Shown: positions 4,681 through 46,537, counted from the stretch's first letter. The stretch: 64,000 nucleotides of DNA from Armatimonadota bacterium (GCA_018268355.1 JAFDWR010000001.1:353797-417796), one strand, 5' to 3'. Numbers and translations: made by a program. The notes: a model not told the origin generated them from the letters alone.

Positions 4681-4863
4681 ATGACACTCTTTGTCGGACT
4701 AGGGATGATCCTCACCGTGGCGGTTATGGCCGTCATCAGCCACCAGGCGCCGGAGCTGGCGATGGATGAGGCGACCCACCCCGCGGCCCCAAGTCGAACC
4801 GAAGTGATTGAGCTTCAGTTCCCCATGGCTTCCGAAGCGGAAGACGTTCGCCGCGCGGCTTAA
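4681..4863 (+). CDS. Small single-pass membrane protein, hypothetical
   Basis: A 60-aa open frame with one hydrophobic segment (residues 3-20) and a polar, acidic tail. No homologous family is recognised and no clear ribosome site precedes the ATG. Two things make it credible. It fills the gap between two minus-strand genes, and a strong plus-strand intrinsic terminator lies 80 bp beyond its stop (4943-4978), inside the antisense lipoprotein gene, where it would otherwise have no purpose. Confidence 0.45.
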   Translation: MTLFVGLGMILTVAVMAVISHQAPELAMDEATHPAAPSRTEVIELQFPMASEAEDVRRAA

Positions 4864-5303
4864 CGAGGAGCTTCTGCCGTCGTGCTGATCCGGGAGAGTC
4901 GGATCGGATCGCCGGGCAAAAAGGAGCTTTGAAAAGACGCTGAACCGTCTTGTTGTCGTTTGACAACAAGCGGTTTTTGCCATTCTGGAGCGGCGTTTTT
5001 CGCGGGAAGGCCCGCGATTCGCTCTGGTGTCAGCTCAACTTCGCCATCCGTGCGCCGCGCTTGACCCTCAAACATCACGCCACCATCGATCAGCTCATAG
5101 CGGCCATCCGGGTGGATGATCAGCTTGACCGACTTGATCGTCTCTTCCGCACCGCCGTACTCGGGGTTGGCGATCTTGACGACCTGGCGCTTGCCGGTCC
5201 AGGTCCCGACCCAATCGCCGCTTGAAACGCAGCCAGCGAGTGAGCCAACCAAGGCTGCGACAACAAGTGCGCGGACCCTGTTGGGCGTCATAATTCGTTT
5301 CAT
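4860..5303 (-). CDS. Lipoprotein, hypothetical
   Basis: About 147 aa with a type II signal peptide: basic start MKRIMTPNRVR, hydrophobic stretch, then lipobox LAGC with Cys25 as the lipidation site. The mature part begins SSGDWVGTWTGKR and looks like a small beta-rich domain of the GTW lipocalin-like kind, but no family is certain. The ATG at 5303 is preferred because AGGGG lies 8 nt upstream; a GTG at 5312 and an ATG at 5291 are alternatives. The start codon overlaps the divergent purL start (CATG at 5301-5304), and its coding strand hides a plus-strand terminator. Confidence 0.7.
   Translation of the reverse strand: MKRIMTPNRVRALVVAALVGSLAGCVSSGDWVGTWTGKRQVVKIANPEYGGAEETIKSVKLIIHPDGRYELIDGGVMFEGQARRTDGEVELTPERIAGLPAKNAAPEWQKPLVVKRQQDGSASFQSSFLPGDPIRLSRISTTAEAPR
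4943..4978 (+). terminator. Plus-strand intrinsic terminator inside the antisense lipoprotein gene
   Basis: CTTGTTGTC (4949-4957) pairs perfectly with GACAACAAG (4962-4970) around a 4-nt loop, extended by AACCG/CGGTT with one bulged T. It is followed by TTTTT on the plus strand. It would end transcription from the small gene at 4681-4863, while still coding for a Gln/Lys/Arg-containing stretch of the lipoprotein on the other strand. Confidence 0.7.
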
Positions 5304-7569: not shown

Positions 7570-7643
7570 ATCGGCTATAACAAAGGGATGCTGGCGGGAA
7601 ATGTCTCGTCGGGATGAGTTGTTTGTTCAGAAGGATAGGAATC

Positions 7644-9128
7644 ATGCAAATCAAGCGTTGGATGAAGCCTCTTTGGCTGATGGCGGTAGTGGCAGTGGCT
7701 GGATCAGCCCTCGCACAGACTCCGCCGAAGGTCACCGAAGAGGACGTCAAGTTTTCTCAGGCCGTCGTTGCGGCGGTCACTCAGTATCGGGCCGATAAGG
7801 ATGCCGATGCGGCTATTACTAAGCTCGAAGCGCTCTATAAGGAGCGACCGGCGAGCGCAGACACGGCGGGATGGCTCGGCTTCCTCTACCTGCAAAAGGG
7901 TCGAGCAGCAGATGCAATCCCCATGCTCAAGCAAGCCGTCGACGCCAAGCCCGATGATCTCGAGCTTCGCATCAACCTCGGTTCGGCTTACCTCCAGAAC
8001 ATGGATGCCGACAATGCCGAAGCGACCTTTAAGGCCGCCGATGCAAAGGCCGCGAACAACGCGACGATCAAGTACAACCTTGGCCTCGTCTACCTCGCGA
8101 AGAAGAATTACTCGGAAGCCGCCAATTGCTTCCGCATGTCGGCCTCGCTGAAGCCCGACGACGCCTACAGCTTCAACAACCTTGGCGTTGCTGAGGATGC
8201 AAGCGGACGCAACGAGCAGGCCGCCGAAGCCTTCATGAAGGCATCGGCCCTGAAGACCGATTCGGCTGTTTTCGCCAAGAATGCGGCTTCGTCGCTAATT
8301 CGAGCCGGTCGATGGGCGGATGCAATTCCGTACATCGAGCGCATGAAGACGGCCTCGCCGAGCGACCGATCGCTCGACCTCGTCCACGCCGAAGCGCTGA
8401 TGCGAACCGGCCGACGAGCCGAAGCTCGCGACATGTATGAGAAGGCCAAGGACCTCGCCGGTAACGACCGACGATTCTGGTTCAACCTCGGCGTCATGCG
8501 ACAGCAGAGCGGCGACACCGCGGGTGCTGAAGAGGCTTACCGAAAGGTCGCCGACATGAACGACCAGAACGACAGCCTTCGCGTCGACTCGCTGAAGAAC
8601 CTCGGCAGCATCCTTTTCAAGAAGGGTGATTACGCGAACGCTGCGCCGATCTTCGCTGAGCTGGTCAAGAACGGCGACAATCTCGCCGCCAAGAAGAACC
8701 TCGCCTCCTGCTACATCCTCACCGGAAACGCAGGCGAAGCGGTGCCCCTCTTCAAGGAGATCCTGAAGAAGGACCCGAGCGACGTCACCGCACGCGTCAA
8801 CCTTGCCAGCGCGCAGTGGAAGGCGGGCGAAGTCGAGAACGCCAAGAGCAACTTCATGGCCGCTCTCAAGCTCGATCCGCAGAATGCAGCCGCCCTCAAT
8901 GGCGTCGGCCTCATTCACCTTAAGAACAACAAGTACGCGGATGCCGAGCGAGCCTTCAAGGGCGCAATCGCCAGCAACGACAAGTTCGCTGCCGCTTACA
9001 ACAACCTCGCCGTCGTGATGGAGAAGCTGAACAAGAAGGCTTCCGCGCTGAACCTTCTTCGAAAGGCCAAGGCGCTCGATCCGAACTCGGCCGAGATTGA
9101 AGAGAACCTCAAGCGACTCGGCGGCTAA
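7644..9128 (+). CDS. Secreted TPR-repeat protein
   Basis: 494 aa beginning MQIKRWMKPLW, with a Sec signal peptide ending SALA-Q. The rest is made of consecutive 34-residue tetratricopeptide repeats, about eleven by eye. Typical repeat signatures are A-W-L-G-FLYLQKG, INLGSAYLQ, YNLGLVYLAKKNY, FNNLGVAEDASGR and YNNLAVVMEKLNKK. TPR solenoids act as protein-binding scaffolds, and export suggests a periplasmic or envelope role. The start is chosen for the GGATAGGA ribosome site; a start at 7614 would break the signal peptide. A strong bidirectional terminator follows. The binding partner is unknown. Confidence 0.85.
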   Translation: MQIKRWMKPLWLMAVVAVAGSALAQTPPKVTEEDVKFSQAVVAAVTQYRADKDADAAITKLEALYKERPASADTAGWLGFLYLQKGRAADAIPMLKQAVDAKPDDLELRINLGSAYLQNMDADNAEATFKAADAKAANNATIKYNLGLVYLAKKNYSEAANCFRMSASLKPDDAYSFNNLGVAEDASGRNEQAAEAFMKASALKTDSAVFAKNAASSLIRAGRWADAIPYIERMKTASPSDRSLDLVHAEALMRTGRRAEARDMYEKAKDLAGNDRRFWFNLGVMRQQSGDTAGAEEAYRKVADMNDQNDSLRVDSLKNLGSILFKKGDYANAAPIFAELVKNGDNLAAKKNLASCYILTGNAGEAVPLFKEILKKDPSDVTARVNLASAQWKAGEVENAKSNFMAALKLDPQNAAALNGVGLIHLKNNKYADAERAFKGAIASNDKFAAAYNNLAVVMEKLNKKASALNLLRKAKALDPNSAEIEENLKRLGG

Positions 9129-9148
9129 GCCGAAGCAAGCTTGATTTG

Positions 9149-9197
9149 CAAAAAGATCCGCCGCTTCCCCAAGGGGAGGAGCGGCGGATCGCTTTTT
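9149..9197. terminator. Bidirectional terminator between TPR gene and carboxypeptidase
   Basis: An 11-bp perfect stem (9155-9165 with 9180-9190) is extended internally by TCCCC/GGGGA. It is flanked by five A on the left and five T on the right, so it can stop transcripts from both converging genes. Confidence 0.93.
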
Positions 9198-9209
9198 GTC
9201 TGGACCGAC

Positions 9210-10688
9210 TTAGAGTCCGTAGATCGCCCGGTACTTGGCGGTGATGCCCGTTAGGTAGTCGGTCGGGTCGAGCGGCTTGCCGGTGAGCTTGAGAACGAGC
9301 TCCTTCGGTGCGTAGCGGCAGCCGTGCTGGTACATGTTCTCGCGGAGCCAGCCGTGGATCGTCGCGAAGTCGCCCTTGGCCATGAGCTCGTGGACATTGC
9401 CGATCTCCTTCTCCATCGCATTCCAGATCTGGTAGCTGAGGACGTTGCCCATCGAGTAAGTGGGGAAGTAGCCGATTGAACCCATCGACCAATGGACGTC
9501 CTGCAGGCAGCCCTGCGCGTCGTTCGGCGGCGTGATGCCGAGATACTGCTGGTACTTCGCGTTCCAGGCCTCCGGCATGTCCTTCACCTCTAGCGCACCG
9601 GTGAGCACGTCGCATTCGATCTCAAACCGGATGAGGACGTGCATGTTGTAGGTCATCTCATCGGCTTCGACCCGGATGAGGCTCGGCTCAACCTTGTTGA
9701 TGCCTCGATAGAACGTGTCGAGGTCCTTGTTCGCGAGAACCGGGAAGGCCTGTTGCAGCTTCGGAAGGAAGATCGACCAGAATTCGCGGCTTCGACCGAC
9801 GAGGTTCTCCCAGGTTCGGCTCTGGCTCTCGTGGAGACCGAGCGAAACACCGCCCTGGAGGAACGTGCGATCGAACGAGGCAGGCGAGCCTTGCTCATAC
9901 ATGCCGTGGCCAGCTTCGTGGAGCGACCCGAAGATCGCCGAGCCAAGGTACGGCTTGTATCGAGTCGTGAGCCGGACGTCCCCGACGCCAAAGGTCGTGC
10001 AGAACGGGTGGGGTGCCTCGTCTTGTCGGCCCCGCTCAAAGTCAAAGCCGATCTCCTTGACGATCGTCTCCGTGAACTTGCGCTGGGTGGGAATGTCCCA
10101 CTCGCCATAAAGCCAGCTGTCGTCCACCTCGGGAAGCTCCTTGATCGCGAGGATCAGGGGCGCTTGTTCGGCCTTCAGCGCGTCGAACATGCGTCGGCAG
10201 TCGGCGGCGGTGGAACCCTCTTCGTACTGGTCGAGAAGTGCGTCGTAGATGTGGTCGGTGTAGCCGAGGAGTTCGGCTTCTTCCCGCGCGATCTCGAACA
10301 TCCGGCTCAGGGTCGGGACGAACGACTTGAAGTTGTTCGAAGCCCGGGCGGCCACCCACTCGTTGTGGGCAATCGAGCTCAGGCGGCTCTTTTCGGCGAC
10401 AAGCGAAGCGGGGAACTTGGTCGCAAGGTCAAAGCGTCGCTTGATGACGCGGAGTTCGGCTTGGTCGATGTCGGTTTCCGGGCTCGCGGCGTCGATAAGG
10501 GACTTCGTCTTGTCGTCCACAAAGAGCTCGTGGGCCATGCGCGAGAGACAGCTGGTGTGCTCGGCGCGCGACTCGCTGCCACCCTCGGGCATGTAAGTCT
10601 GTTGGTCCCAATCAAGAACCGTGATGGCGTTGTGAAGTGCATGAACATCAGCTAGCCGTAAGCGGAGTTGTTCGAGTGCGGTGGGCAT
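9210..10688 (-). CDS. Metallo-carboxypeptidase, M32 family (Taq carboxypeptidase type)
   Basis: A cytosolic zinc carboxypeptidase that removes C-terminal residues from peptides. The protein is 492 aa, normal for M32 (about 500). The zinc site HEAGH is at residues 257-261, followed by the family motif GMYEQG. Other family marks are WDQQTYMPEGG near residue 27, the HPF motif near 217 and the C-terminal YxTG-like stretch (DYLTGITAKY). Start ATG 10688 gives MPTALEQL with GGTAGG upstream; a TTG six codons earlier is possible. It stands alone on the minus strand between convergent and divergent neighbours. Confidence 0.95.
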   Translation of the reverse strand: MPTALEQLRLRLADVHALHNAITVLDWDQQTYMPEGGSESRAEHTSCLSRMAHELFVDDKTKSLIDAASPETDIDQAELRVIKRRFDLATKFPASLVAEKSRLSSIAHNEWVAARASNNFKSFVPTLSRMFEIAREEAELLGYTDHIYDALLDQYEEGSTAADCRRMFDALKAEQAPLILAIKELPEVDDSWLYGEWDIPTQRKFTETIVKEIGFDFERGRQDEAPHPFCTTFGVGDVRLTTRYKPYLGSAIFGSLHEAGHGMYEQGSPASFDRTFLQGGVSLGLHESQSRTWENLVGRSREFWSIFLPKLQQAFPVLANKDLDTFYRGINKVEPSLIRVEADEMTYNMHVLIRFEIECDVLTGALEVKDMPEAWNAKYQQYLGITPPNDAQGCLQDVHWSMGSIGYFPTYSMGNVLSYQIWNAMEKEIGNVHELMAKGDFATIHGWLRENMYQHGCRYAPKELVLKLTGKPLDPTDYLTGITAKYRAIYGL

Positions 10689-35116: not shown

Positions 35117-36480
35117 CTTTTCAGCTTCTCGGCGACCTCGCAGACGTCGCTGCAGGTGTCGTATTGCATCTCCTCCAACCAGTCGGACACGTCATAGTCG
35201 TGGTCGTCGACCAGCTCCTCCAAAGCGTAGCCGCGGCAGGCGCCGCAGCCGGTGTTCTCGTAGACCCAAACGAGGGCGCGAATCGCGGCCTCTTGCGGCA
35301 GATGTTTCGCCATGTCTCGGAATGCAAAGGTGACGGAGTGCTCCTCCTGTTGACTGCCCGTGTTGCCGAGAACGAACTCGGTTGCAGCAGGTAGGAGGAG
35401 ATCGAGGTCCTCGGGCAAGACCGACTTCGTGAGCGATTCGATCCCCACCGCAAAGTCGTCTTCGTCTTGGACGAGTTCGAGCCCGAGCTCGCGGATGGCG
35501 GGGTCGTTGATCTCCTCAAGGACATCCTCGAAGCAACAAGGATGGAACCCCGAACGGACCCGTGCGATGAGTTCGCTCAGGGGGAGCGGGAATCCACGCT
35601 TCTCGATGACTTCAAACAGCTTTATCGCGGTTTCCCAATCCTCTTCAACAAGCCAACGACGGGCGACCTCAAGGTGATCCTCTTCCGTGAGCATTGGTGC
35701 TGCTTGGGGAACTAATCGCCTGGGGACGATGCCCGCGAGGAGGTCGGCCAGTACTCCCTTGTCCGAGGGAACATAGACCGGACGCGGCTCGCGCACGAAG
35801 GTGCGCTGAAACTCTTCTTTTGCCTTGTCCCGGGCGGCTTCTAACCGGGCGAGTAGATCACGGGGAACGTCTTTGAAGTCTTTATTCTCCGGTCCAAGGT
35901 CTTCATCCAGCTTCCAATAGTTGCCCACCGTGATCACCTCGTCCGCGTGCTCGGCGAGCCAAATGATCCCGCGAGGGATGTAGTAGCTGAGCTCGTAGAA
36001 GGCGTCTTCGTTCGACTTTCGGACGTAGTCGGTGAGCTCATCGAAGGCCCAGTCCTGGCCCTTCTTTGAGAGGTAGACGAGGGCTTCGACGTAGCTTTCG
36101 AGCGCTTGAGGCTCGTTTTCGGCGACCAGCTTCTGGAGGTGGGCGAGTGAGCGATCGTCGCCACTCTCCGCGAAAACGGCAAGGGTGCGAAATCGGAGCG
36201 TCCGGTCCTTTTCGACCATCTCCTCTTCCTCAAATTCGGCCTCGATCAGAGCGTCGCGCAGCTGCTCGCGTATCCCCGCGCGCGTGGCAAGTTCGATGTT
36301 GAACCGTCCCGCGAAGCATCCAAACTGGCGGTCGAGCCGATAGTCGTTCAGCGAGTAGTGGATGATCTCATCCTTGTAGTCCTGCGGGACGTCGGGGTTT
36401 GTAACGAGCACGGCGCGTCCGTGCCCCGCCCGCACCCACAGGCGATAAACATCCAGCGGCGGCAGGCTGGGGGCGATCAA
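35104..36480 (-). CDS. Helical-repeat (HEAT-like) hypothetical protein
   Basis: 458 aa, cytosolic, strongly acidic and helical. It shows irregular repeats that look HEAT/ARM-like (RTLAVFAESGDDRSLAHLQKLVAE, ESYVEALVYLSKKGQDWAFDELTDY, EEAAIRALVWVYENTGC). Several cysteine pairs occur in the C-terminal part (CCFED, CGAC, CSDVC). No catalytic motif or family is recognised. It follows the aldehyde dehydrogenase region only by position: its start overlaps that gene's stop by 4 nt, so it is translationally coupled at the end of the hydroxyproline operon. Its stop codon lies inside the tRNA-Val gene on the other strand. Confidence 0.65.
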   Translation of the reverse strand: MIAPSLPPLDVYRLWVRAGHGRAVLVTNPDVPQDYKDEIIHYSLNDYRLDRQFGCFAGRFNIELATRAGIREQLRDALIEAEFEEEEMVEKDRTLRFRTLAVFAESGDDRSLAHLQKLVAENEPQALESYVEALVYLSKKGQDWAFDELTDYVRKSNEDAFYELSYYIPRGIIWLAEHADEVITVGNYWKLDEDLGPENKDFKDVPRDLLARLEAARDKAKEEFQRTFVREPRPVYVPSDKGVLADLLAGIVPRRLVPQAAPMLTEEDHLEVARRWLVEEDWETAIKLFEVIEKRGFPLPLSELIARVRSGFHPCCFEDVLEEINDPAIRELGLELVQDEDDFAVGIESLTKSVLPEDLDLLLPAATEFVLGNTGSQQEEHSVTFAFRDMAKHLPQEAAIRALVWVYENTGCGACRGYALEELVDDHDYDVSDWLEEMQYDTCSDVCEVAEKLKSGGR

Positions 36481-37865
36481 TCGACCTCGCTAGGCTCGTT
36501 CTGGACGCAAACCGGGCGAAGCCAGCGCTCGATCGCGGTCATCCCGACCGACGTGAACCGGCTGTCGGTGGTCGCGGGGAAGGGGCCGCCGTGGACCATG
36601 GCGGGGCTGACCTCGACTCCGGTGGGGAAGCCGTCGAAGACCACCCGCCCCACGCGGCGCTTCAGGACCGGAACCAACGAGTGTCCGGCCGTTGCCCCGA
36701 GAAGTGTGGCGGTCAGCTGGCCCGGCATGGAACCCGCGAATTCGAGCATCTCGGCCTCGTCGCGGCAGGTCACGACGACACCGCACGGACCGAAGACCTC
36801 CTCAAAGAGCTCGGCACCCTCCGACGGCGTTGCACTGTAGAGGCGTGCCTGGGGACCCTCGGCGAGCAGCCGAACCCCTTCTGCCGAGGACAAGCGGCAC
36901 AGGCCCGCCTCATAGGCCGCGGCGATTCCAGCCGAGAGCATCGTTGCCTCTCCGGACGTGGAAACCAGCCGCGATATCTCCGCGACAAACGCGCTGAACC
37001 CGGGCGAATCCACCCCGACGAGGAGGCCGGGATTGGTGCAGAACTGGCCCGCGCCGAGGGTGAGCGAGGCCACATAGCCGGCCGCATTTGACTCGGTCTG
37101 CCCCGGCGGCAAGGCAAAGACGGGATTGACGCTGCCCATCTCCGCGAAAACGGGAATCGGTTCCGGGCGATTCGCCCCCAGCCGAAAGAGAGCCAAACCC
37201 GCGCGCTGGGACCCCGTGAAGCCGACCGCAGCGACATTCAGGTCGGTCACCAGCCACTCGCCGACTTCGGCTCCGCCATGCACGCGCTGAACGGCGTCGC
37301 CAAAGGCCGAAGCGAGCGCGCCAAACACCATCTCGCTGGTCCCAGGATGGAGCGGATGGACCTTCACGACCACCGGGCAGCCCGCCGCGAGGGCGCTGGC
37401 GGTATCACCACCGGCGACGGAAAACGCGAGCGGGAAGTTGCTCGCTCCAAAGACCGCGACCACGCCAATCGGGTGCTTCTCCAGCCTCAGGGAGGGCAGC
37501 GGAAGGGGCGCACGATTGGGGTTGCCGGGCAGCGAAAGCGAGTCAAGCACGCCACTCGATTCGATGTGATCGGCAAAGGCGCGGAGCTGGCCGCAAGTCC
37601 GGGCTCGCTCACCCGTGAGACGCGCCACGGGTAGCCCGGATTCAAGGTGGGCCATTTCGATGAGCGCATCGCCCAAGGCTTCAATCGCAGCGGCGGCATC
37701 GCGTAGCTTCTGCGCCCGTGTGGCGACGTCCGAAAGGCTCGCCCAGGTGCTCGGGGAATTCGCTAATGAGCACGCGCGCTCGACGTCGGCTTGGGTGGCG
37801 ATGGGGTACTCGCCGGGGAGGCGCTCGCCGGTCGCGGGGTTGAGGGCAAAGTAGGTTTCAGACAT
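36477..37865 (-). CDS. 2,5-dioxovalerate (alpha-ketoglutarate semialdehyde) dehydrogenase
   Basis: 462 aa, ALDH superfamily. The catalytic Cys276 (GAGQFCTNPG) and general-base Glu242 (AEMGSVNP) are in place, with the NAD(P) motif GFTGSQRAG. ASNFPLAFSVAGGDTASALAAGCPVVVK is the signature of the KGSADH subfamily. The enzyme oxidises alpha-ketoglutarate semialdehyde to 2-oxoglutarate, the last step of hydroxyproline (and some sugar acid) breakdown. It is somewhat short for the family. The upstream FAD enzyme overlaps its start by 8 nt. Confidence 0.88.
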   Translation of the reverse strand: MSETYFALNPATGERLPGEYPIATQADVERACSLANSPSTWASLSDVATRAQKLRDAAAAIEALGDALIEMAHLESGLPVARLTGERARTCGQLRAFADHIESSGVLDSLSLPGNPNRAPLPLPSLRLEKHPIGVVAVFGASNFPLAFSVAGGDTASALAAGCPVVVKVHPLHPGTSEMVFGALASAFGDAVQRVHGGAEVGEWLVTDLNVAAVGFTGSQRAGLALFRLGANRPEPIPVFAEMGSVNPVFALPPGQTESNAAGYVASLTLGAGQFCTNPGLLVGVDSPGFSAFVAEISRLVSTSGEATMLSAGIAAAYEAGLCRLSSAEGVRLLAEGPQARLYSATPSEGAELFEEVFGPCGVVVTCRDEAEMLEFAGSMPGQLTATLLGATAGHSLVPVLKRRVGRVVFDGFPTGVEVSPAMVHGGPFPATTDSRFTSVGMTAIERWLRPVCVQNEPSEVD

Positions 37866-39096
37866 AGCGGAGGGGATCGAGGAGGGAGAGGTCGAGGGAG
37901 GGCTTTTCGCCCGAAATTAGTTCGGCCATGAGCTGGCCGGAGATGGGTCCTAGGCTCAGCCCCATCATGCCATGCCCGCTGGATAAGTACAAGTCGTCGG
38001 CAACCTTCCCAAGGTAGGGAAGGCCATCTGGCGAGCAGGGCCGGGAACCTTGCCAAATCTGAGTGTTGTCGAAGAGGGTGGGCGGCGCGGAGGGAAAGAC
38101 ATCGAAGACGCCCCGCTTGATCCCTTCGTAACGCTGTGGGTCGACGGTGCCGACCTTGCCACCGAGGATCATGGTGCCGGTGACGCGGAGCCCGGTCTGC
38201 ATCGGGGTAATCGCCACCCGGTGGTCGGCAAGGAGGGCGCAACGGCGCGGCGCGAGGGGCGAATCGGGGATCGTGGTGCCATAGCCATGTCCGGCGACAA
38301 GGGGCAACTTTTTGCCGGTTGCCATCTGGAGGAGGTCGCGGGTTTCCACGCCTCCCGCGAGGACCCAAGTGTCGCCCTCAATCGGGCCTGACGTCGTTTC
38401 GACCGCCCTGATCTTGCCGCCTTGGTCCTTGACGAAGCCCTTCACGTTGGTCGCGGTGATCACTTCGACCTGGCCACGAAGGGCGGAAAGGACCGCGCTC
38501 GGCGTGATCCAGGCATCGTCCTCAAAGATGACGCCGCCCACCGCGCGGATGGGAGTAGCGGGGTCGTAAACGTCGAGCGATTGGGCGTCAAAGCGCTTAA
38601 TCCGAAGTCCGAGCGATTCGGCGTGGTCGGCGAGTTCGAGCTCTTCGTGCAGGGTTTCCGCCTTGCTACAAAGGACGGCGAGGCCGCGCGGTGTGTAGCC
38701 GAGAGGGCCCAGGGTCGTCTCCCAATGGGCGTAGATCTCCTTGGAACGCAGGTTCAGGTCGCGCAGAAGGAACTTCGTGCGTTCGACGTGCTTGCGGTTG
38801 GCGCGCAAGGCGAACCGGGCCATCCAGCCGTAAAGCGAAAGGTCGGTGCCGAAGCGAAAGCCGAAAGGGCTACCCCTCCGCAGGCTCATCTTGAGGCCCT
38901 TCCACACCATCCCCGGCGCAGCAAGGGGAACGAAGTGGCTCGGCACGATCATGCCCGCGTTGCCGGTCGAGGTCAGGGTCGCGGTGTCATCGGGGCGGCG
39001 GCGTTCGAGGACGACCACGTCGACCCCGCGCTGCTTGAGGGCATAGGCGGTGCTCAGCCCGATGATCCCGCCGCCGACAATGACGATTCGGCTCAT
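37858..39096 (-). CDS. FAD-dependent D-amino-acid / D-hydroxyproline dehydrogenase
   Basis: 412 aa of the DadA/LhpB type. The N-terminus IVIVGGGIIGLSTAYALKQRG is the FAD-binding Rossmann motif, and the C-terminal GKVADDLYLSSGHGMMGLSLGPISGQL is the family flavin-clamp region. In this context (next to a DapA-family deaminase and a ketoglutarate semialdehyde dehydrogenase) the likely reaction is oxidation of cis-4-hydroxy-D-proline to pyrroline-4-hydroxy-2-carboxylate. It overlaps the deaminase by 4 nt. D-alanine or D-proline oxidation remains possible. Confidence 0.85.
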   Translation of the reverse strand: MSRIVIVGGGIIGLSTAYALKQRGVDVVVLERRRPDDTATLTSTGNAGMIVPSHFVPLAAPGMVWKGLKMSLRRGSPFGFRFGTDLSLYGWMARFALRANRKHVERTKFLLRDLNLRSKEIYAHWETTLGPLGYTPRGLAVLCSKAETLHEELELADHAESLGLRIKRFDAQSLDVYDPATPIRAVGGVIFEDDAWITPSAVLSALRGQVEVITATNVKGFVKDQGGKIRAVETTSGPIEGDTWVLAGGVETRDLLQMATGKKLPLVAGHGYGTTIPDSPLAPRRCALLADHRVAITPMQTGLRVTGTMILGGKVGTVDPQRYEGIKRGVFDVFPSAPPTLFDNTQIWQGSRPCSPDGLPYLGKVADDLYLSSGHGMMGLSLGPISGQLMAELISGEKPSLDLSLLDPLRYV

Positions 39097-40004
39097 CGAG
39101 AAAGCGCGCCGACCATGGCCCTTCGAGCCTCCGCTTCTTCAAGAACCATGTGGACGTGAGCTCGCTCCTCCTTGGAGAGCGGAAGCCTCGGCGGGCGAAC
39201 GGTTTCGCTTCCCATCCCGCGAAGCTGGATGGCGAGCTTGATCTGCTGGACAAACTTACGGCCGATATCGAGGCGAAGCAGCGGCGAGAACCAGCGGTAG
39301 AGGTCGCGGGCCTCTTCCCAGTTTCCGCCCATCATGAGATCCCAGAGTGCGGCATTCTCATCGGGATAAGCGAGGGCCATGCCCGCGATCCAGCCCTTCG
39401 CGCCGAGAATCGTGCATTCCAGGGCAAGGTCATCGACGCCCGCCATCAGCACATAACGATCACCGACCGCATTAGCAAGCTGCGTGAAGCGGCGGGTGTC
39501 TCCGCTCGATTCCTTGATCGCGACGATGTTGCTTTGGTCGCTCAAAACCTTGAAGTCCTCGGGCGTGAGGTCGACGTGGTAGCCGATCGGGTTGTTGTAG
39601 GCGATAAACGGCAGGTCGGTGCTTCGCGCGACGTTCATGAAGTGGGCATGGGCCTCTTCGCGGTCGGCGTGATAGACCATCGCGGGCATGAGCATGAAGC
39701 CGTGGACGCCGGCCCTTTCGGCCGCCGCGACATAGTCAATCGCCTGGTGCCAGCCGTATTCGGCGACGCCAGAAATGACGGGAACCCGGCCCTTGGCGAC
39801 CTCGAGCGCGCAGCGCAGCACCTGGAGCTTCTCCTCGCGGTTCAGGGCGACGTTCTCGCCCAGCGATCCAAGCATGACGAGGCCGTGGACCCCCGAACCG
39901 ATCATGCGCTCAATGTGGTCAGCGGTTGCGTCGAGATCAAGGCTGTGATCCGGGCGGAACTGGGTCGTCATCGCGGGATAAACGCCGTGAAAGTCAGGCT
40001 TCAT
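39093..40004 (-). CDS. DapA-family lyase, probable pyrroline-4-hydroxy-2-carboxylate deaminase
   Basis: 303 aa TIM-barrel aldolase of the DHDPS/NAL family. Schiff-base Lys164 (VAIKESSGD) and catalytic Tyr136 (FIAYNNP) are present, and the start of the barrel HGVYPAMTTQF is typical. The adjacent D-hydroxyproline-type dehydrogenase and KGSA dehydrogenase point to LhpC/HypD-like deamination of Pyr4H2C to alpha-ketoglutarate semialdehyde, in preference to lysine synthesis. It is the first gene of this minus-strand operon. The divergent BMP transporter starts 53 bp away. Confidence 0.82.
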   Translation of the reverse strand: MKPDFHGVYPAMTTQFRPDHSLDLDATADHIERMIGSGVHGLVMLGSLGENVALNREEKLQVLRCALEVAKGRVPVISGVAEYGWHQAIDYVAAAERAGVHGFMLMPAMVYHADREEAHAHFMNVARSTDLPFIAYNNPIGYHVDLTPEDFKVLSDQSNIVAIKESSGDTRRFTQLANAVGDRYVLMAGVDDLALECTILGAKGWIAGMALAYPDENAALWDLMMGGNWEEARDLYRWFSPLLRLDIGRKFVQQIKLAIQLRGMGSETVRPPRLPLSKEERAHVHMVLEEAEARRAMVGALSR

Positions 40005-40057: not shown

Positions 40058-41077
40058 ATGAAACCGCTCGCCATACTCGCTGGCCTCCTTGCCCTTTCGC
40101 TCGTCGGATGCAAGGGCGATTCGACCAATACCACCGGGACCGCCGGTGGCGAACAGCCCGGCAAAGGCGGCGCGTCGAAGTCGATCAAAGTTGCTTTGTT
40201 GACGCCGGGACCGGTCAGCGATTCGGGATGGAACGCGATGGCTTATGAAGGCCTCGTCGCGATCAAGAACGAGCAGGGCGCGACCGTCCAAAACCAGGAA
40301 GCAGCGGGTGAAGGCCAGATCAAGGACGCCATGCGGCAGTACGCCCAGGATGGCTACAACCTCGTGATTGGCCATGGGTTTGAATACAACGGGGTCGCCA
40401 AGGAGATTGCCGCCGACTTTCCGAACACCGCGTTTGTAAGCAGCTCGGGCGCGCAATCGGGTCCGAACTTCGGTGCCTTCCGCTTCTACCTTGAGCAGGG
40501 CTTCTACCTCGCGGGCATGATGGCTGCGGGTATGAGCAAGACGGGCGTGGTCGCCGTCGTCGGACTCGACGTGCCCTCGATCCGCTCAACGTTCAAGGGC
40601 TTCATCGCAGGCGCGAAGGCGGTTCGCCCCGATATCAAGATTGTCGAGAAGTACGTTCCGCTTCCCGGAACCGACATCGCCGCTTACAAGCAATCGACGC
40701 TTGCTGCGATTGACGAGAAGGCCGACTTCATCATGCACCAGGCCAACCAGGGCGCCCAGGCCGTGTTTGATGCCGCGAAGGAGAAGGGCGTGCTTTGCTT
40801 TGGCGCGAACGCCAACCAGAACAACAACCCGAGCGGCGTGGTCATCGCGAGCGCGGTCATTATCGCCAAGCCCGCCTTCCTTGACCTCGCGAAAGAAGTC
40901 GCGGAAGGGAAGTACAAGGGCCGGGTTCAGCTCTTTGGCATGGACAAGGGCGCGATCGACTTCGTCGTGAATCCCGCGATGGCAGACAAGGTGCCAGGAG
41001 AGCTGATGTCGAAGATCCAGCAAGCCCGCACGGAGATTGCCACCGGCAAGCTCGTGGTTCCGAAGGACGAATTCTGA
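40058..41077 (+). CDS. BMP-family ABC substrate-binding lipoprotein
   Basis: 339 aa. A lipoprotein signal with lipobox LVGC (Cys at about 18) is followed by a Gly/Ser-rich tether and the Bmp/Med/PnrA fold (IKVALLTPGPVSDSGWNAMAYEGL, GVVAVVGLDVPSIRSTFKGFIAGAK, FIMHQANQGAQAVFDAAKEKG). Family members bind nucleosides such as guanosine and inosine; the ligand here is inferred. It is the first gene of a six-gene coupled operon with the ATPase, two permeases, a pterin synthase and an SDR. Confidence 0.92.
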   Translation: MKPLAILAGLLALSLVGCKGDSTNTTGTAGGEQPGKGGASKSIKVALLTPGPVSDSGWNAMAYEGLVAIKNEQGATVQNQEAAGEGQIKDAMRQYAQDGYNLVIGHGFEYNGVAKEIAADFPNTAFVSSSGAQSGPNFGAFRFYLEQGFYLAGMMAAGMSKTGVVAVVGLDVPSIRSTFKGFIAGAKAVRPDIKIVEKYVPLPGTDIAAYKQSTLAAIDEKADFIMHQANQGAQAVFDAAKEKGVLCFGANANQNNNPSGVVIASAVIIAKPAFLDLAKEVAEGKYKGRVQLFGMDKGAIDFVVNPAMADKVPGELMSKIQQARTEIATGKLVVPKDEF

Positions 41078-41084
41078 GGCCACG

Positions 41085-42506
41085 TTGAGCGAACTTGTCG
41101 TCAAGGGCGTCCGCAAGACGTACGGCTCGCTGGTCGCCCTCGACGATTTCTCGGCGACCTTTCGGCCGGGCGAGATCCACGCCATCCTCGGTGAAAACGG
41201 AGCGGGCAAATCGACGCTCGTCAGCATCCTTTCCGGATTTGTGACCCCCGACCAGGGCGGGGTTTCGCTGGGCAGTCGGGACCTGCCGCTCGGACAACCG
41301 ACCCGCGTGCGCCAGCTTGGCGTCTCGATGGTCCACCAGCATTTCGCCCTCGTCCCCGCGATGACGGTGGAGGAGAACTTTGCCCTTGACCGCCTGTGGT
41401 CTTCGAAGGGTCTCTTGAACCTTAGCGAACTCGCTGGGCCCGCGCTTGAACTCGCTGAGCGACTGGATTGGGCAGTCGAACCGAAGGCTCGCGTTGCCGA
41501 CCTTCCGGTCGGCGTTCGTCAGCGGGTTGAGATCCTCAAGGCCCTCGTCGGGAATGCGCCCGTGATCATCCTCGACGAGCCGACCGCGGTCCTCTCCGCT
41601 GAGGAAGTCGAAGACCTCTTCCGCGTGCTGCGCTCGCTGCGCGATGAAGGGAAGGTCGTCCTCCTGATCGCCCACAAGCTCGACGAGGTGCTCTCCGTTG
41701 CCGACCGGTTCACCGTGCTGCGGCGGGGCAAGTGGATCACCACTGCCGACCGGGGCGACGTGACCAAGGAGCAGCTAGTTCAGTGGATGATCGGCGATCA
41801 ACTGAACATCGAGCCCGCAGGCCGCAAGCTCGGGGAGAACGTGGTTTGCGCTCTTCGCAAGGTGAAAGCCAACGACGAGACCGGCGTTTTGCGCTTGACG
41901 GTGGACGATCTTGAGGTTCGCGCGGGTGAGATTTTTGGGATCGGTGGTGTGGATGGCAACGGCCAAAAGGAGCTTGCCGAAGTCCTTGTTGGCATCACCG
42001 CGCCGGTTGCGGGGACGCGGGAGGGCGACCCCAGCGTCGCCTACATCCCCCAGGATCGCCAGCGCGAGGGCCTTGTCCTCGACCTCAGCATCGTGGACAA
42101 CATCTCGTTTGAGCGGACGTCGCTGGTTGGCTTTGCGATCGACAACCCGAAGGCGCGCCGCCGACTGGCGACGGAGTTGATCGAGCGGTATTCGATCAAG
42201 GTTTCGGAGGCCGAAGGCCCCGTGAAGTCGCTCAGCGGCGGAAACCAACAGAAGGTCGTCGTCGCCCGCGAGCTCAACACCAAGCGCGATCTGATCGTCG
42301 CGGTCAACCCGACGCGCGGCCTCGACTTCCGCGCCGCCGCCTTCGTGCATTCTTCGCTCCTCGCCGCTCGCGAGGCGGGCAGCGCGGTCGTTCTCATCAC
42401 CGCCGACCTTGATGAGCTTCGGGAGCTCAGCGACCGAGTTGGGTTCCTTTCGGGCGGTGGCCTCAAGCTCGGCGGTGATGCCTCCGCGATGTTGGAGGGG
42501 CATTGA
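41085..42506 (+). CDS. ABC importer ATPase with two domains (YufO/NupA type)
   Basis: 473 aa. A TTG start at 41085 is chosen because GAGG lies 6 nt upstream and it gives the family N-terminus LSELVVKGVRKTYG. Domain 1 has Walker A GENGAGKS, Q-loop HQHF and Walker B ILDEP. Domain 2 has the usual degenerate Walker A (GVDGNGQ), signature SLSGGNQQK and NPTRGLDF. This two-domain layout is that of sugar/nucleoside importers. It lies 8 bp after the binding-protein gene and overlaps the first permease by 4 nt. Confidence 0.94.
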   Translation: MSELVVKGVRKTYGSLVALDDFSATFRPGEIHAILGENGAGKSTLVSILSGFVTPDQGGVSLGSRDLPLGQPTRVRQLGVSMVHQHFALVPAMTVEENFALDRLWSSKGLLNLSELAGPALELAERLDWAVEPKARVADLPVGVRQRVEILKALVGNAPVIILDEPTAVLSAEEVEDLFRVLRSLRDEGKVVLLIAHKLDEVLSVADRFTVLRRGKWITTADRGDVTKEQLVQWMIGDQLNIEPAGRKLGENVVCALRKVKANDETGVLRLTVDDLEVRAGEIFGIGGVDGNGQKELAEVLVGITAPVAGTREGDPSVAYIPQDRQREGLVLDLSIVDNISFERTSLVGFAIDNPKARRRLATELIERYSIKVSEAEGPVKSLSGGNQQKVVVARELNTKRDLIVAVNPTRGLDFRAAAFVHSSLLAAREAGSAVVLITADLDELRELSDRVGFLSGGGLKLGGDASAMLEGH

Positions 42507-43522
42507 AGCGGGCCGCTCTTCTCGTTGGCTCGCTCCTCGTGATCCTCGGGGTCACGCTCGCCGTTTTGGGCCTGCCGGTTTTTGAAAGCATGAAGCTGCT
42601 GTTTACGGGGGCGTTCGGTTCTAGCCGTGGCCTCGACAGCACGCTGACAAAGATGACGCCGCTCCTGCTCGTTGGTCTCGGAGTGGTCGTCGCCTGGCGG
42701 GCAGGGGTTTACAACGTCGGCGGGGAAGGGCAGTTTGTGATCGGCGGTCTGGCCGCCGCGACGGTGGCGGCCTTACTCGGCAAGAACCCGAGTGGCGTCA
42801 TGCAGGTCGTCGTCCTTGCCGGCGGGATGCTCGGCGGTGCGGCTTGGGGCTGGATTGCAGGGTGGCTCTCCCACCGGCGAAGGGTGGACGTTGTCATCTC
42901 GACGATCCTCCTGAACTTCATTGCGATCTTCCTGCTCCAGGGCCTCATTGCGGGCGCGCTGAGGGACCCCGAGGTTAATCTGCCCCAGTCGGCACGGCTC
43001 GAAGACAGCCTGCGGCTCATGCGGTTCACCCGGCAGGGCGACCTCCACCTTGGATTCATCGTCGCCCTCTTCGGCGCTGCGGCCTTGTGGTTCTTGCTCA
43101 ATCGAACGACGCTCGGCTTCAAGCTCAAGCTCGTGGGAGCGAATCCGCTTCTTGTCCGGGCCCAGCGGCTCAATGCCGACCGACTCCGGACTTTCGCGAT
43201 CAGCCTTTCGGGGGCACTTTGCGGCCTCGCCGGTGCGGTTGAATTCGCGGGCGTCAACCATCGGCTCGGCCAGTCGTTCAACCAGAACTGGGGCTTCCTC
43301 GCGATACCGGTTGCCGTGCTTGGCGGGCTGAACCCGATTGGAACTGCCTTTGCCGCACTCTATTTTGCCGCCGTTCTGGCGGGGGCGAGGAATCTCGGCG
43401 GCTTCAGCCAAAATGGGGCGGCCATCGTCGCGATTGTTCAGGCGATTGCTGTTCTCGGGTTCATGGCGGTCAATCAGTGGCTTTCGCGTCGGCGCGAGGC
43501 CGTCCGGGAGGTTGCGGAATGA
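42503..43522 (+). CDS. ABC importer permease 1 (YufP/NupP type)
   Basis: 339 aa, about nine membrane helices. The motif AWRAGVYNVGGEGQFVIGG is the BPD_transp_2 signature, and TTLGFKLKLVGANP is the cytoplasmic coupling loop. Start TTG overlaps the ATPase stop by 4 nt, and its stop overlaps the next permease by 4 nt. With its neighbour it forms the heterodimeric channel for the ligand bound by the BMP lipoprotein. Confidence 0.93.
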   Translation: MKRAALLVGSLLVILGVTLAVLGLPVFESMKLLFTGAFGSSRGLDSTLTKMTPLLLVGLGVVVAWRAGVYNVGGEGQFVIGGLAAATVAALLGKNPSGVMQVVVLAGGMLGGAAWGWIAGWLSHRRRVDVVISTILLNFIAIFLLQGLIAGALRDPEVNLPQSARLEDSLRLMRFTRQGDLHLGFIVALFGAAALWFLLNRTTLGFKLKLVGANPLLVRAQRLNADRLRTFAISLSGALCGLAGAVEFAGVNHRLGQSFNQNWGFLAIPVAVLGGLNPIGTAFAALYFAAVLAGARNLGGFSQNGAAIVAIVQAIAVLGFMAVNQWLSRRREAVREVAE

Positions 43523-44385
43523 TCGCCACCATCCTCCTGTTCTCGGTGCCGCTCATCCTCGCCGCGATGGGCGAAGTCGTTGGGCAACGCGCGGGCATGA
43601 TCGACATCGGCCAGGAAGGGAAGATCCTCATCGGTGCATTCGTCGGATTCATCGTCGCGAAGATCACTGGCAGCTTGATCGTGGGCTACGCCCTCGCCGT
43701 GGTCGCGGGGGTTGCGCTCGGTTGTCTCTCAACCTGGTTCACCGCAAAGCTCCAACTCGACCAAGTTGTCGTCGGAACCGCGCTCAACCTGCTCGCGCTC
43801 GGAGCCACGTCGATTGCCTTCCGCATCTATGTCGGCGACTCCGGAAAGCTCCTCTCGATCGACAAGGCCCCCGCCCTTTTTGGCCTTGACCCCGTGGTGT
43901 ATCTCGCCATCCTTTCGCCTGCGGTGATCTGGTTCGTGTTGATGAAGACGAGCTGGGGCCTCAGCGTCCGCGCAAGCGGCGAGTATCCACCGGCAGTTGA
44001 GGCGGCAGGAATTAGCGTCATCCGTCGGCGGTTCGAGGCTGCGATGCTTGCGGGGGGCATGAGTGGCCTTGCGGGAGCGGCCCTCAGCATCGCCTTGTCG
44101 GGTTCGCTCGGCGAGGGCATGAGCGCAGGCCGTGGATTCCTTGCGATTGCGGTGGTGACGTTTGGCCGGTGGCGCGCGCCTTGGGTGGCGGGAGCCGCGC
44201 TGCTCATCGGCGTAATCGACGCGGTGCAGTACCGATTCCAAGGCCAGGCCATCTTAGGGTTCAAGCCGCCCCTCCAGCTTTGGCAAGCCTTGCCTTACCT
44301 CGGGGCGCTTCTGATTCTCTTTGCGCTCGGGAGAGGAGCGGGTGCGCCGGCGGCCCTTGGTCGAGCGTATAACAAGGAGCGATGA
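43519..44385 (+). CDS. ABC importer permease 2 (YufQ/NupQ type)
   Basis: 288 aa, about eight membrane helices. It carries VGQRAGMIDIGQEGKILIGAF, the family signature, and KTSWGLSVRASGEYPPAVEAAG, the coupling loop with the ATPase. The start ATG 43519 (ATGA overlap with permease 1) gives the membrane N-terminus; a start at 43477 is inside permease 1. Its stop overlaps the pterin-synthase gene by 4 nt, so a metabolic enzyme is translationally coupled to the importer. Confidence 0.93.
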   Translation: MIATILLFSVPLILAAMGEVVGQRAGMIDIGQEGKILIGAFVGFIVAKITGSLIVGYALAVVAGVALGCLSTWFTAKLQLDQVVVGTALNLLALGATSIAFRIYVGDSGKLLSIDKAPALFGLDPVVYLAILSPAVIWFVLMKTSWGLSVRASGEYPPAVEAAGISVIRRRFEAAMLAGGMSGLAGAALSIALSGSLGEGMSAGRGFLAIAVVTFGRWRAPWVAGAALLIGVIDAVQYRFQGQAILGFKPPLQLWQALPYLGALLILFALGRGAGAPAALGRAYNKER

Positions 44386-45221
44386 GTACCTCTCCCATCC
44401 GGCTGGTCCGCCGAATCCGCTTTTCGAGCGGTCACCGATATTGGGATGTCGCCAAATCGGAGGCCGAGAATCGGGCCAAGTACGGCCGGTGGGCGTCGCC
44501 CTTCAACCACGGCCACAACTATGTCCTAGACGTTGGCGTGGAAGGGATGCTCGACCCTCGAACCGGGATGGTGGTGAACATCAAGCGGGTTGATGACGTC
44601 CTCAAGGACCACATCGTTGCCCAGTTCGACCAGAAGAGCATCAACGACGAGGTGGAGGCGTTCAAGTCGAAGTCGGTCACCCTGGAGAACCTTCTCACCT
44701 ACTTCGGGGCGATCCTCACCCAGCCCGGCGTTTTGCCGCCCCAAGTTCAGCTCGCCACCTTGCGACTCGAAGAAACTCACGACCTGTATGGCGAATGGAG
44801 CCTCAGCACAAACACCATGACCTTAACTCGATCCTATGAATTTGCCGCCGCCCACCGGCTCCACGTTCCCCAGCTCAGCGAGGAGGAGAACGTCCGGCTC
44901 TTTGGCAAGTGCAACCACATCAGCGGCCACGGTCACAACTACATCCTTGAGGTCTCTGTGAGCGGCGAAGTGGATCCTCTGACCGGCATGATGGTCGACC
45001 TGATGGAGCTGGACCGGATCGTGAACGAGGAGATCGTAGACCGGTACGACCACAAGTTCCTCAACATCGACATCCCCGAGTTCAAGGAGTCGCCGACGAC
45101 GAGCGAGTGCATTGCCCAAGAGGTTTTCAACCGCCTCGATCGCGCGCTGCCGGTGAGGCTCAGCCGGGTGCGACTGTTTGAGACCGCGCGCAGCTACTTT
45201 GAAGTGGAGAGCGCCTCGTGA
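44382..45221 (+). CDS. Tandem 6-pyruvoyl-tetrahydropterin synthase/QueD protein, N-domain degenerate
   Basis: 279 aa made of two fused PTPS domains. The C-terminal one is complete: zinc His158, His183 and His185 (FAAAHRL, GHGHNY), catalytic Cys177 (KCNHIS), Asp223-His224 (RYDHK) and C-terminal Glu267. The N-terminal one keeps the zinc His18/His43/His45 (SSGHRYW, NHGHNY). But the Cys position is Trp37, and Asp-His is Asp83-Gln84, so it should be inactive. Family reactions are dihydroneopterin triphosphate to PTP (pterin synthesis) or to 6-carboxy-THP (queuosine). The gene is coupled to the permease upstream and to the SDR downstream. Confidence 0.9.
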   Translation: MSTSPIRLVRRIRFSSGHRYWDVAKSEAENRAKYGRWASPFNHGHNYVLDVGVEGMLDPRTGMVVNIKRVDDVLKDHIVAQFDQKSINDEVEAFKSKSVTLENLLTYFGAILTQPGVLPPQVQLATLRLEETHDLYGEWSLSTNTMTLTRSYEFAAAHRLHVPQLSEEENVRLFGKCNHISGHGHNYILEVSVSGEVDPLTGMMVDLMELDRIVNEEIVDRYDHKFLNIDIPEFKESPTTSECIAQEVFNRLDRALPVRLSRVRLFETARSYFEVESAS

Positions 45222-45919
45222 CCGTCCGCGCCATTGTCACGGGTGCTTCGAGCGGTATCGGCCGCGAGACCGCGGTTGCCCTTTCGGCGGCGGGAATCGA
45301 AACCGTCCTCGTCGCGCGTCGCCGCGATGCCCTCCTCGAGACCGCCGCGCGTTGCCCCGCGCCCCATCAGCTTTTTGTCGCGGACCTGGCCAAGCCAGGA
45401 TCAGAAGTCGAGGTCGTGGACTACGCCCAATCGCTCGGTGAGGGCGTGAAGCCAGTCCTCATCAATGCGGCAGGGATGGCCGAATTTGGATCGATTGAGG
45501 CCTTGACCGCCGATTCGCTCCAAAGGCAGATTGAAATCAACCTGCTCGCCCCCGCTCGGCTGTGCCATGAGGTGCTGCCCTGGATGCTCAAAGAGGGCAG
45601 CGGGCACATTGTGAACGTCCTCAGCGTAGTCGCCAGCCAGCCGCTCCCGAACACTGGTGCCTATGCGGCGGCGAAGGCGGGACTGCTGATGTTTGGCAAG
45701 GTCCTCTCGGCGGAAGTCCGTCGCAAGGGAATTCTGGTCACGTCGGTGCTGCCCGGTGCGGTGGACACCCCGATTTGGGATGCAATGGACTTCAAGCCAA
45801 ACCGAGCCGACATGATTCCGTCGAGCATGGTCGCCGAAGCCATCGTGCAGGCCGTTCTCGCTGGGCCCAAGATGGCGGTGGATGAACTCCACCTGATGCC
45901 GCCGAAAGGCTTACTTTGA
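45218..45919 (+). CDS. Short-chain dehydrogenase/reductase
   Basis: 233 aa, classical SDR. The cofactor loop TGASSGIGRE, the NAAG motif (INAAGMAEFG), Ser in NVLSVVAS, and YAAAK (Tyr-x-x-x-Lys) are complete. The family includes sepiapterin reductase, and the coupling to a PTPS-type gene (GTGA overlap) makes a pterin reductase role plausible, as in tetrahydrobiopterin synthesis, though sequence alone does not prove it. It ends the importer-pterin operon and overlaps a convergent lipoprotein gene by 9 nt. Confidence 0.85.
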   Translation: MTVRAIVTGASSGIGRETAVALSAAGIETVLVARRRDALLETAARCPAPHQLFVADLAKPGSEVEVVDYAQSLGEGVKPVLINAAGMAEFGSIEALTADSLQRQIEINLLAPARLCHEVLPWMLKEGSGHIVNVLSVVASQPLPNTGAYAAAKAGLLMFGKVLSAEVRRKGILVTSVLPGAVDTPIWDAMDFKPNRADMIPSSMVAEAIVQAVLAGPKMAVDELHLMPPKGLL

Positions 45920-46366
45920 GCCGATGATGTTCACGCGGCCACGGCGAGTGATTCCGTCATAGCGAAGGCTGCCCGCGTTGACGACTTCCATCCAGATGGC
46001 GTCGTTCGAAACCTTGGCGGCGGGCTTGCCCACAAAGTCGGCCTTGAACCGGATCTCCCACTTGTGCTTGGGCACCTCTTGGAGGAGGTCAAACAGCTTG
46101 GTGCCGTCGACCGCAATGAACTTACCGAGCTTGGCCTTGTCGGTCATCCAGTCGGGCAACTTCTTCGACGAGAACTCGGGGATGACCGCCTTGGGGTCAT
46201 CGAGTTTCGCATTCCAAATCTGGTTGAGCAGGACAAGGTCGTCGTAGACGAGGCCATTGTCGGGCGCGAGGGTCACGTCCTCCTTGTTGATCCCTTTCGG
46301 CAAGGGCTTCGGTTCAAACGAATCGCCGCAACCGCCGAGGATCACGAGGCCGAGTAGGGCAGGCAT
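45911..46366 (-). CDS. Lipoprotein, hypothetical
   Basis: About 151 aa from MPALLGLVILGGCGDS, with lipobox LGGC. The mature part starts SFEPKPLPKGINKED and has two segments rich in Asp/Lys (LFDLLQEVPKHKWEIRFKADFVG) with no family seen. A TTG about 10 codons upstream would add a basic N-terminus and is a fair alternative start. It is convergent with the SDR (9-nt overlap) and divergent from ftsZ. Confidence 0.68.
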   Translation of the reverse strand: MPALLGLVILGGCGDSFEPKPLPKGINKEDVTLAPDNGLVYDDLVLLNQIWNAKLDDPKAVIPEFSSKKLPDWMTDKAKLGKFIAVDGTKLFDLLQEVPKHKWEIRFKADFVGKPAAKVSNDAIWMEVVNAGSLRYDGITRRGRVNIIGSK

Positions 46367-46537
46367 TGACCAGGGTTTTGTACGAAAATTGAACAACGTT
46401 TTCTGTCCTCGGGCCACTAAAGTGCTAGAATTCGGTTTCGAGTGGAGCCATCGGTCTCTCCGAGTTCCCATGCCCAGATTGATTATGCAGGATCATCTCG
46501 GCGCATGTTCGGCGCGGGCATGGCTAGGTTTTGGACC

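Follow-up and report, generated by a model that had tools for sequence, protein, structure and literature searches.

Within the window, a 64,000-nt stretch of DNA from an Armatimonadota bacterium whose genome assembly (2.7 Mb) is 97.7% complete, six consecutive genes on the plus strand (40058-45919) encode a BMP-family lipoprotein, an ABC ATPase, two permeases, a two-domain 6-pyruvoyl-tetrahydropterin synthase (PTPS) and an SDR:

40058..41077, + strand: BMP-family substrate-binding lipoprotein, 339 aa, candidate pterin receptor (PF02608, Bmp, 1.3e-46; lipobox Cys18)
41085..42506, + strand: ABC transporter ATPase with two nucleotide-binding domains, TTG start (PF00005, ABC_tran, two stretches)
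42503..43522, + strand: ABC permease 1, TTG start (PF02653, BPD_transp_2, 5.6e-39)
43519..44385, + strand: ABC permease 2, ATG start (PF02653, BPD_transp_2, 5.9e-29)
44382..45221, + strand: tandem two-domain 6-pyruvoyl-tetrahydropterin synthase, 279 aa (PF01242, PTPS, two stretches, 1.9e-55)
45218..45919, + strand: SDR, sepiapterin-reductase-like, 233 aa (PF00106, adh_short, 3.3e-41)

The original prediction described these genes as joined by an 8-bp gap or 4-nt overlaps. The overlaps are correct, namely TTGA at 42503-42506 (ATPase/permease 1), ATGA at 43519-43522 (permease 1/permease 2), ATGA at 44382-44385 (permease 2/PTPS) and GTGA at 45218-45221 (PTPS/SDR, the latter ending at 45919), whereas the gap between the TGA stop codon of the lipoprotein gene (41075-41077) and the TTG start of the ATPase gene (41085) is 7 nt when read from the DNA. 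No riboswitch or other RNA element preceding the operon was detected with Rfam in this stretch of the window (E up to 0.5), and the same search of nine related loci revealed no RNA element except two tRNAs.

On the minus strand, a divergent trio of genes with overlapping ends (36477-40004) encodes a DHDPS-family protein, a D-amino-acid-dehydrogenase-like flavoprotein and an aldehyde dehydrogenase, a combination that resembles hydroxyproline catabolism. On the other side, a small lipoprotein-like gene without Pfam or NCBIfam match (45911-46471, minus strand) converges on the SDR gene and overlaps its end by 9 bases; ftsZ is next, at 46442.

Conservation of gene order among relatives

The operon was compared with 121 related genomes, in which f1 is the window's own Armatimonadota family. 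The tandem PTPS as a query matches 108 of the 121, some of these matches being short single-domain PTPS genes only, and a two-domain PTPS gene is present in 67 of the 73 f1 genomes. Among the other 66 f1 genomes with a tandem PTPS, several of whose contigs stop inside the operon, permease 2 lies directly upstream of the tandem PTPS in the same direction in 60 and all four transporter genes are upstream in 46, while the SDR directly follows in 34 and is not adjoining in 32. Start codons allowing a 1-, 4- or 8-nt overlap were found at most junctions (ATPase/permease 1, 55/62; permease/permease, 48/65; permease 2/PTPS, 42/68; PTPS/SDR, 26/35), and the internal junctions in f1 and in f5, a family of the same order, are overlaps of 1-8 nt. 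The f5 operon reads BMP-ATPase-permease-permease-PTPS-FolE-SDR, with FolE inserted between the tandem PTPS and the SDR, and in families f9, f11, f16 and f20 the tandem PTPS likewise adjoins the transporter, or at least some of its genes, with FolE next in most cases. Gene order is conserved in f1 and f5, so that the refuting case named in the original prediction, a gene order not kept among relatives, did not arise, and the operon layout is not due to chance. The earlier view that transporter and pterin genes form one unit is borne out by the order kept in these relatives, as is the remark that the arrangement has no standard name: none was found for a BMP-ABC-PTPS-SDR operon.

One genome (G107; locus L067, G107:C12:9000-23000, positions 4801-10182) has the order BMP-ATPase-permease-permease-FolE with no tandem PTPS; its BMP protein belongs to the pocket type of the operon-linked BMPs described below, and a phenylalanine hydroxylase is encoded elsewhere in the genome. 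Since it precedes FolE here without a tandem PTPS, the transporter goes with pterin genes at large more than with PTPS as such. This arrangement, together with a junction kept across several families, makes it very unlikely that transporter and pterin genes adjoin merely through shared ancestry without working together, even though some relatives keep one part only and one has a 3.9-kb insertion between the two parts. The former are genomes of f2, an order-level relative, which retain the tandem PTPS and phenylalanine hydroxylase without the BMP transporter, and G010, which also lacks the transporter; because both do without it, tetrahydrobiopterin (BH4) synthesis does not depend on the transporter. 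In addition, phenylalanine hydroxylase-SDR-PTPS is the gene order in a planctomycete, and an SDR-PTPS pair occurs in a gammaproteobacterium; neither has the transporter nearby, and a BMP search of these two genomes, carried out without a positive control, gave no match.

The pterin enzymes and the rest of the pathway

The tandem PTPS carries, in its C-terminal domain, C177, HGH at 183-185, D223-H224 and E267, and with them the CxxxxxHGH signature of PTPS-II, which differs from CxxxHGH in QueD (PTPS-I) and ExxHGH in PTPS-III (PMC5041015). C177 and H183-G184-H185 are invariant (67/67 and 26/26), and H158, C177, H183, H185, D223, H224 and E267 are all invariant in the 67 f1 members; the catalytic Asp/His pair and the pterin-anchoring Glu were also identified by alignment to rat PTPS. 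The catalytic triad and Zn ligands of this domain are intact. Neither CxxxHGH nor ExxHGH is present in either domain, the residues before HGH being CNHISG in the C-terminal and WASPFN in the N-terminal one. The N-terminal domain (44382-44810) lacks the catalytic Cys (position 37 is W) and has, in the window, D-Q for D-H. It is probably a structural or binding-only site, and the preservation of its Zn histidines H18, H43 and H45 and of E131 in 67/67 despite the loss of Cys and His suggests a retained binding or regulatory role.

Sequence comparison places PTPS of rat, human and a nematode nearest among solved structures (9.6e-33 to 1.5e-26, the best being rat PTPS 1b66 at 9.6e-33), well before QueD (3.4e-12), and the AlphaFold model (pLDDT 90.6) contains two complete T-folds. 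A dual-domain bacterial PTPS in BH4 synthesis has reportedly been described, according to the title of Kong et al. 2006 (doi 10.1016/j.febslet.2006.08.006). The two-domain architecture is common to that bacterial BH4 synthesis and the operon in the window, and therefore the fusion itself is not new; passages of PMC5041015 and PMC3546692 cite the report.

A role of the tandem PTPS in queuosine (as QueD) or folate (as PTPS-III) synthesis instead of BH4 synthesis is highly improbable. The window's own genome does contain QueC (G000:C4:273053-273691) and HPPK, a separate single-domain PTPS-family gene was not found in it, and the QueD model TIGR03367 also matches the tandem protein; however, the PTPS-II signature and the animal PTPS structures point elsewhere, and the SDR and phenylalanine hydroxylase suit BH4. 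Moreover, a single-domain PTPS exists in most f1 genomes besides the tandem gene, which argues that the latter is not simply QueD. A separate QueD was found neither in the window's genome nor in most f5 genomes; it may have been missed, or another enzyme may fill this step.

The SDR has a TGX3GXG motif (TGASSGIG) and the residues S136, Y149, K153 and W187, which are present in 44/44. Family-level SDR models leave its substrate undecided. The best PDB match of its C-terminal, catalytic half, running to the C-terminus, is 2bd0, the sepiapterin reductase of Chlorobium tepidum, in which W187 aligns with W196, presumably the active-site Trp of that enzyme. Judged by its catalytic residues, the SDR fits a sepiapterin-reductase-like protein closest to the Chlorobium enzyme. 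A pteridine reductase of the PTR1/PruA type was considered and ruled out, the motif TGX3RXG of such enzymes (PMC13259868) being absent and replaced by TGX3GXG. With CxxxxxHGH in the PTPS and a catalytic half nearest to sepiapterin reductase in the SDR, the two enzymes agree with the biopterin-type synthesis that had been suggested.

Other pathway genes are present in the same genome, which encodes FolE2 (above the NCBIfam cut-off and outside the operon), phenylalanine 4-monooxygenase (also above the cut-off) and pterin-4a-carbinolamine dehydratase. GTP cyclohydrolase I, whose presence had been named as a check, is thus represented by FolE2, whereas the classical FolE was not found in this genome or across the whole f1 family. 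FolE and FolE2 are mostly mutually exclusive in the order, f5 having FolE in the operon without FolE2 and f1 having FolE2. With FolE2, phenylalanine hydroxylase and the dehydratase encoded outside the operon, the genome appears to have all that is needed to make a BH4-type pterin de novo. Rather than a 7-deazapurine, a BH4-type pterin is the most probable product, considering the CxxxxxHGH instead of CxxxHGH signature, the separate single-domain PTPS in most f1 genomes, and the presence of phenylalanine hydroxylase and dehydratase; of the two products first proposed, the biopterin-like one is thus preferred to the 7-deazapurine.

With regard to users of the cofactor, nitric oxide synthase, a possible second one, is absent from all 121 genomes, and phenylalanine hydroxylase was not found in genus g9 (G008 and G036) and several other classes despite the presence of the operon or the tandem PTPS. 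As neither enzyme was found there, a further pterin user is likely in these organisms. Both g9 genomes have the full transporter-PTPS-SDR operon with no aromatic amino acid hydroxylase detected.

The possibility that the BMP transporter replaces FolE was also considered and ruled out, as FolE-bearing f5 genomes have both and f1 has FolE2. In three genomes (G009, which is 100% complete, G040 and G060) the tandem PTPS, phenylalanine hydroxylase and HPPK are present and neither FolE nor FolE2 was found; if this absence is real, these organisms would rely on pterin import and provide the best natural test cases. Two reduced genomes of 1.5 Mb in genus g29 (G028 and G047) are missing PTPS, FolE, FolE2, phenylalanine hydroxylase, pterin dehydratase and HPPK altogether.

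The BMP lipoprotein and its likely cargo

Both the PF02608 fold and a lipobox are present in the BMP lipoprotein, whose pocket residues are W58, H106-G107-F108-E109-Y110, H227-Q228, N251 and I268, a pattern invariant in 51/51 family members. When the BMPs were aligned jointly, 62 that are operon-linked or of the same type showed W58, H106-G107-x-E109-Y110 and N251, and position 268 was I or, in rare cases, V, L or S. The nucleoside pocket of the BmpA family is built from stacking Phe27 and Phe176 and ribose-binding Asp98, Asp225 and Lys242 (PMC13325309). In nearly all operon-linked BMPs, N251 and I268 replace Asp225 and Lys242, and W58 and a G/N/D loop take the places of Phe27 and Phe176, whereas the second BMP of the same genome (L089) retains F, D and K, as other-type BMPs do. 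Only two divergent BMPs (L150 and L152) are intermediate between the pocket types.

Nucleosides had been named as one possible cargo, and import of a purine nucleoside such as guanosine, which would feed GTP and hence pterin synthesis, is in keeping with the mostly nucleoside-binding BMP members of known structure and with the GTP-using FolE inside the operon in several relatives. Such a cargo is nevertheless disfavoured and very unlikely, because the operon protein has other residues where Asp and Lys would bind ribose and Phe would stack on the nucleobase, and the separate BMP of the same genome keeps all three (PMC13325309). The transporter is probably not a nucleoside importer.

The AlphaFold model of the lipoprotein (pLDDT 84.7) was compared by Foldseek, in which the nearest folds were those of guanine-bound AtzT and guanosine-bound Lbp, and riboflavin-bound RfuA was matched as well. 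Of the guanine contacts of AtzT, Asn220 is kept, Tyr45 is replaced by Trp, Ser97 by Gly, Glu165 by Ser and Asn218 by Gln, and Trp194 is variable. This partial agreement makes both a nucleoside and plain guanine improbable as the ligand. Guanine has the 2-amino-4-oxo-pyrimidine face of pterins. Considering this common face and the pterin gene neighbours, a pterin is the most economical guess, and we favour a pterin or pterin precursor as the cargo that the importer would carry.

Import of another N-heterocycle (a guanine-like base, a 7-deazapurine, riboflavin or a B6 vitamer) by a transporter that shares the operon for co-regulation is unlikely. It would accord with the binding of guanine and 2-hydroxyatrazine by AtzT, the top fold match (PMC6834077), with the same fold in the riboflavin-binding RfuA, and with the nearest NCBIfam models, which describe a putative B6 ABC transporter. 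However, these models lie far below their cut-offs (103.5/400, 338.5/670, 167.9/400 and 143.6/465 bits), including the nearest model of permease 1, which is that for permease 2 of the putative B6 transporter; Glu165 and Trp194 of AtzT are not kept; and the presence of QueC implies that 7-deazapurines are probably made rather than imported.

Proposed role and comparison with known systems

Taken together, we propose, with a probability of roughly 0.5 and slightly better than even, that the operon makes a BH4-type cofactor and couples its synthesis to an ABC importer for unconjugated pterin. The proposal is built on direct observations of gene content, conserved order, catalytic residues, the other pathway genes and a BMP protein that no longer has the nucleoside pocket. 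FolE2, encoded elsewhere, would convert GTP to dihydroneopterin triphosphate, from which the C-terminal domain of the tandem PTPS would form 6-pyruvoyl-tetrahydropterin; the SDR would then reduce the side chain, as in sepiapterin reductase, to give the BH4-type pterin. Phenylalanine 4-hydroxylase would use this pterin and pterin-4a-carbinolamine dehydratase would recycle it. The BMP lipoprotein may bind pterin in the periplasm, and the ATPase and two permeases may bring it in, probably for recapture of leaked cofactor or salvage from neighbours; the SDR may additionally reduce an imported sepiapterin-like form. What we infer are the enzymatic activities, which product is formed and with which stereochemistry, and most of all the ligand that is transported. 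The more specific idea that the BMP-ABC system is a dedicated bacterial importer of unconjugated (reduced) pterins, hard-wired to BH4 synthesis, is put forward tentatively, at a little under even odds; if true, it would add a new class of ligands to those of BMP proteins and explain, by an ABC system, how pterins get across the bacterial inner membrane.

Tetrahydrobiopterin is best known as a cofactor from animals, and BH4-type synthesis is usually regarded as rare in bacteria; here it would be a core trait of a whole bacterial family. With the bacterial BH4 synthesis known from cyanobacteria and Chlorobium, which relies on PTPS-II and sepiapterin reductase, the operon has the CxxxxxHGH signature and a 2bd0-like SDR in common, but differs in the translational coupling of its genes to those of an ABC importer and in its first enzyme, FolE2, which is encoded elsewhere. 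The nucleoside importers PnrA, BmpA-D and Lbp share with the operon the fold of the lipoprotein and the set of one double ATPase with two permeases, whereas the operon BMP has Asn, Ile and Trp in place of the ribose-binding Asp, Lys and stacking Phe, and a new invariant HGxEY. AtzT (guanine/2-hydroxyatrazine, 6pi5), the best fold match, likewise lacks the nucleoside-type Lys and has Asn at 220, but its Glu165 and Trp194 are not kept in the operon protein, and we know of no linkage of AtzT to pterin genes. In the spirochete riboflavin importer RfuABCD, RfuA (4iil) is a BMP-type lipoprotein that binds a pteridine-related ring; its likeness to the operon BMP is one of fold, with 20% identity over it.

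A search of the open literature, subscription journals aside, found no paper on biopterin in Armatimonadota or on pterin uptake by a BMP transporter. According to a 2026 review, bacteria excrete and take up pterins, whose amounts are greater outside than inside the cells, by a membrane crossing route that is not known, and no efflux system has been identified (PMC13259868). PruA-PruR-DcpA signalling involves a pterin that functions in the periplasm and whose passage through the inner membrane is unexplained (PMC13259868); PruR is a sulfite-oxidase-like protein and not a BMP, and PruA has TGX3RXG where the SDR of the window has TGX3GXG. The BMP protein of the operon is a small soluble receptor that is directly testable, and the loss of its nucleoside-binding residues makes the importer a candidate for the missing route of pterin uptake in bacteria.
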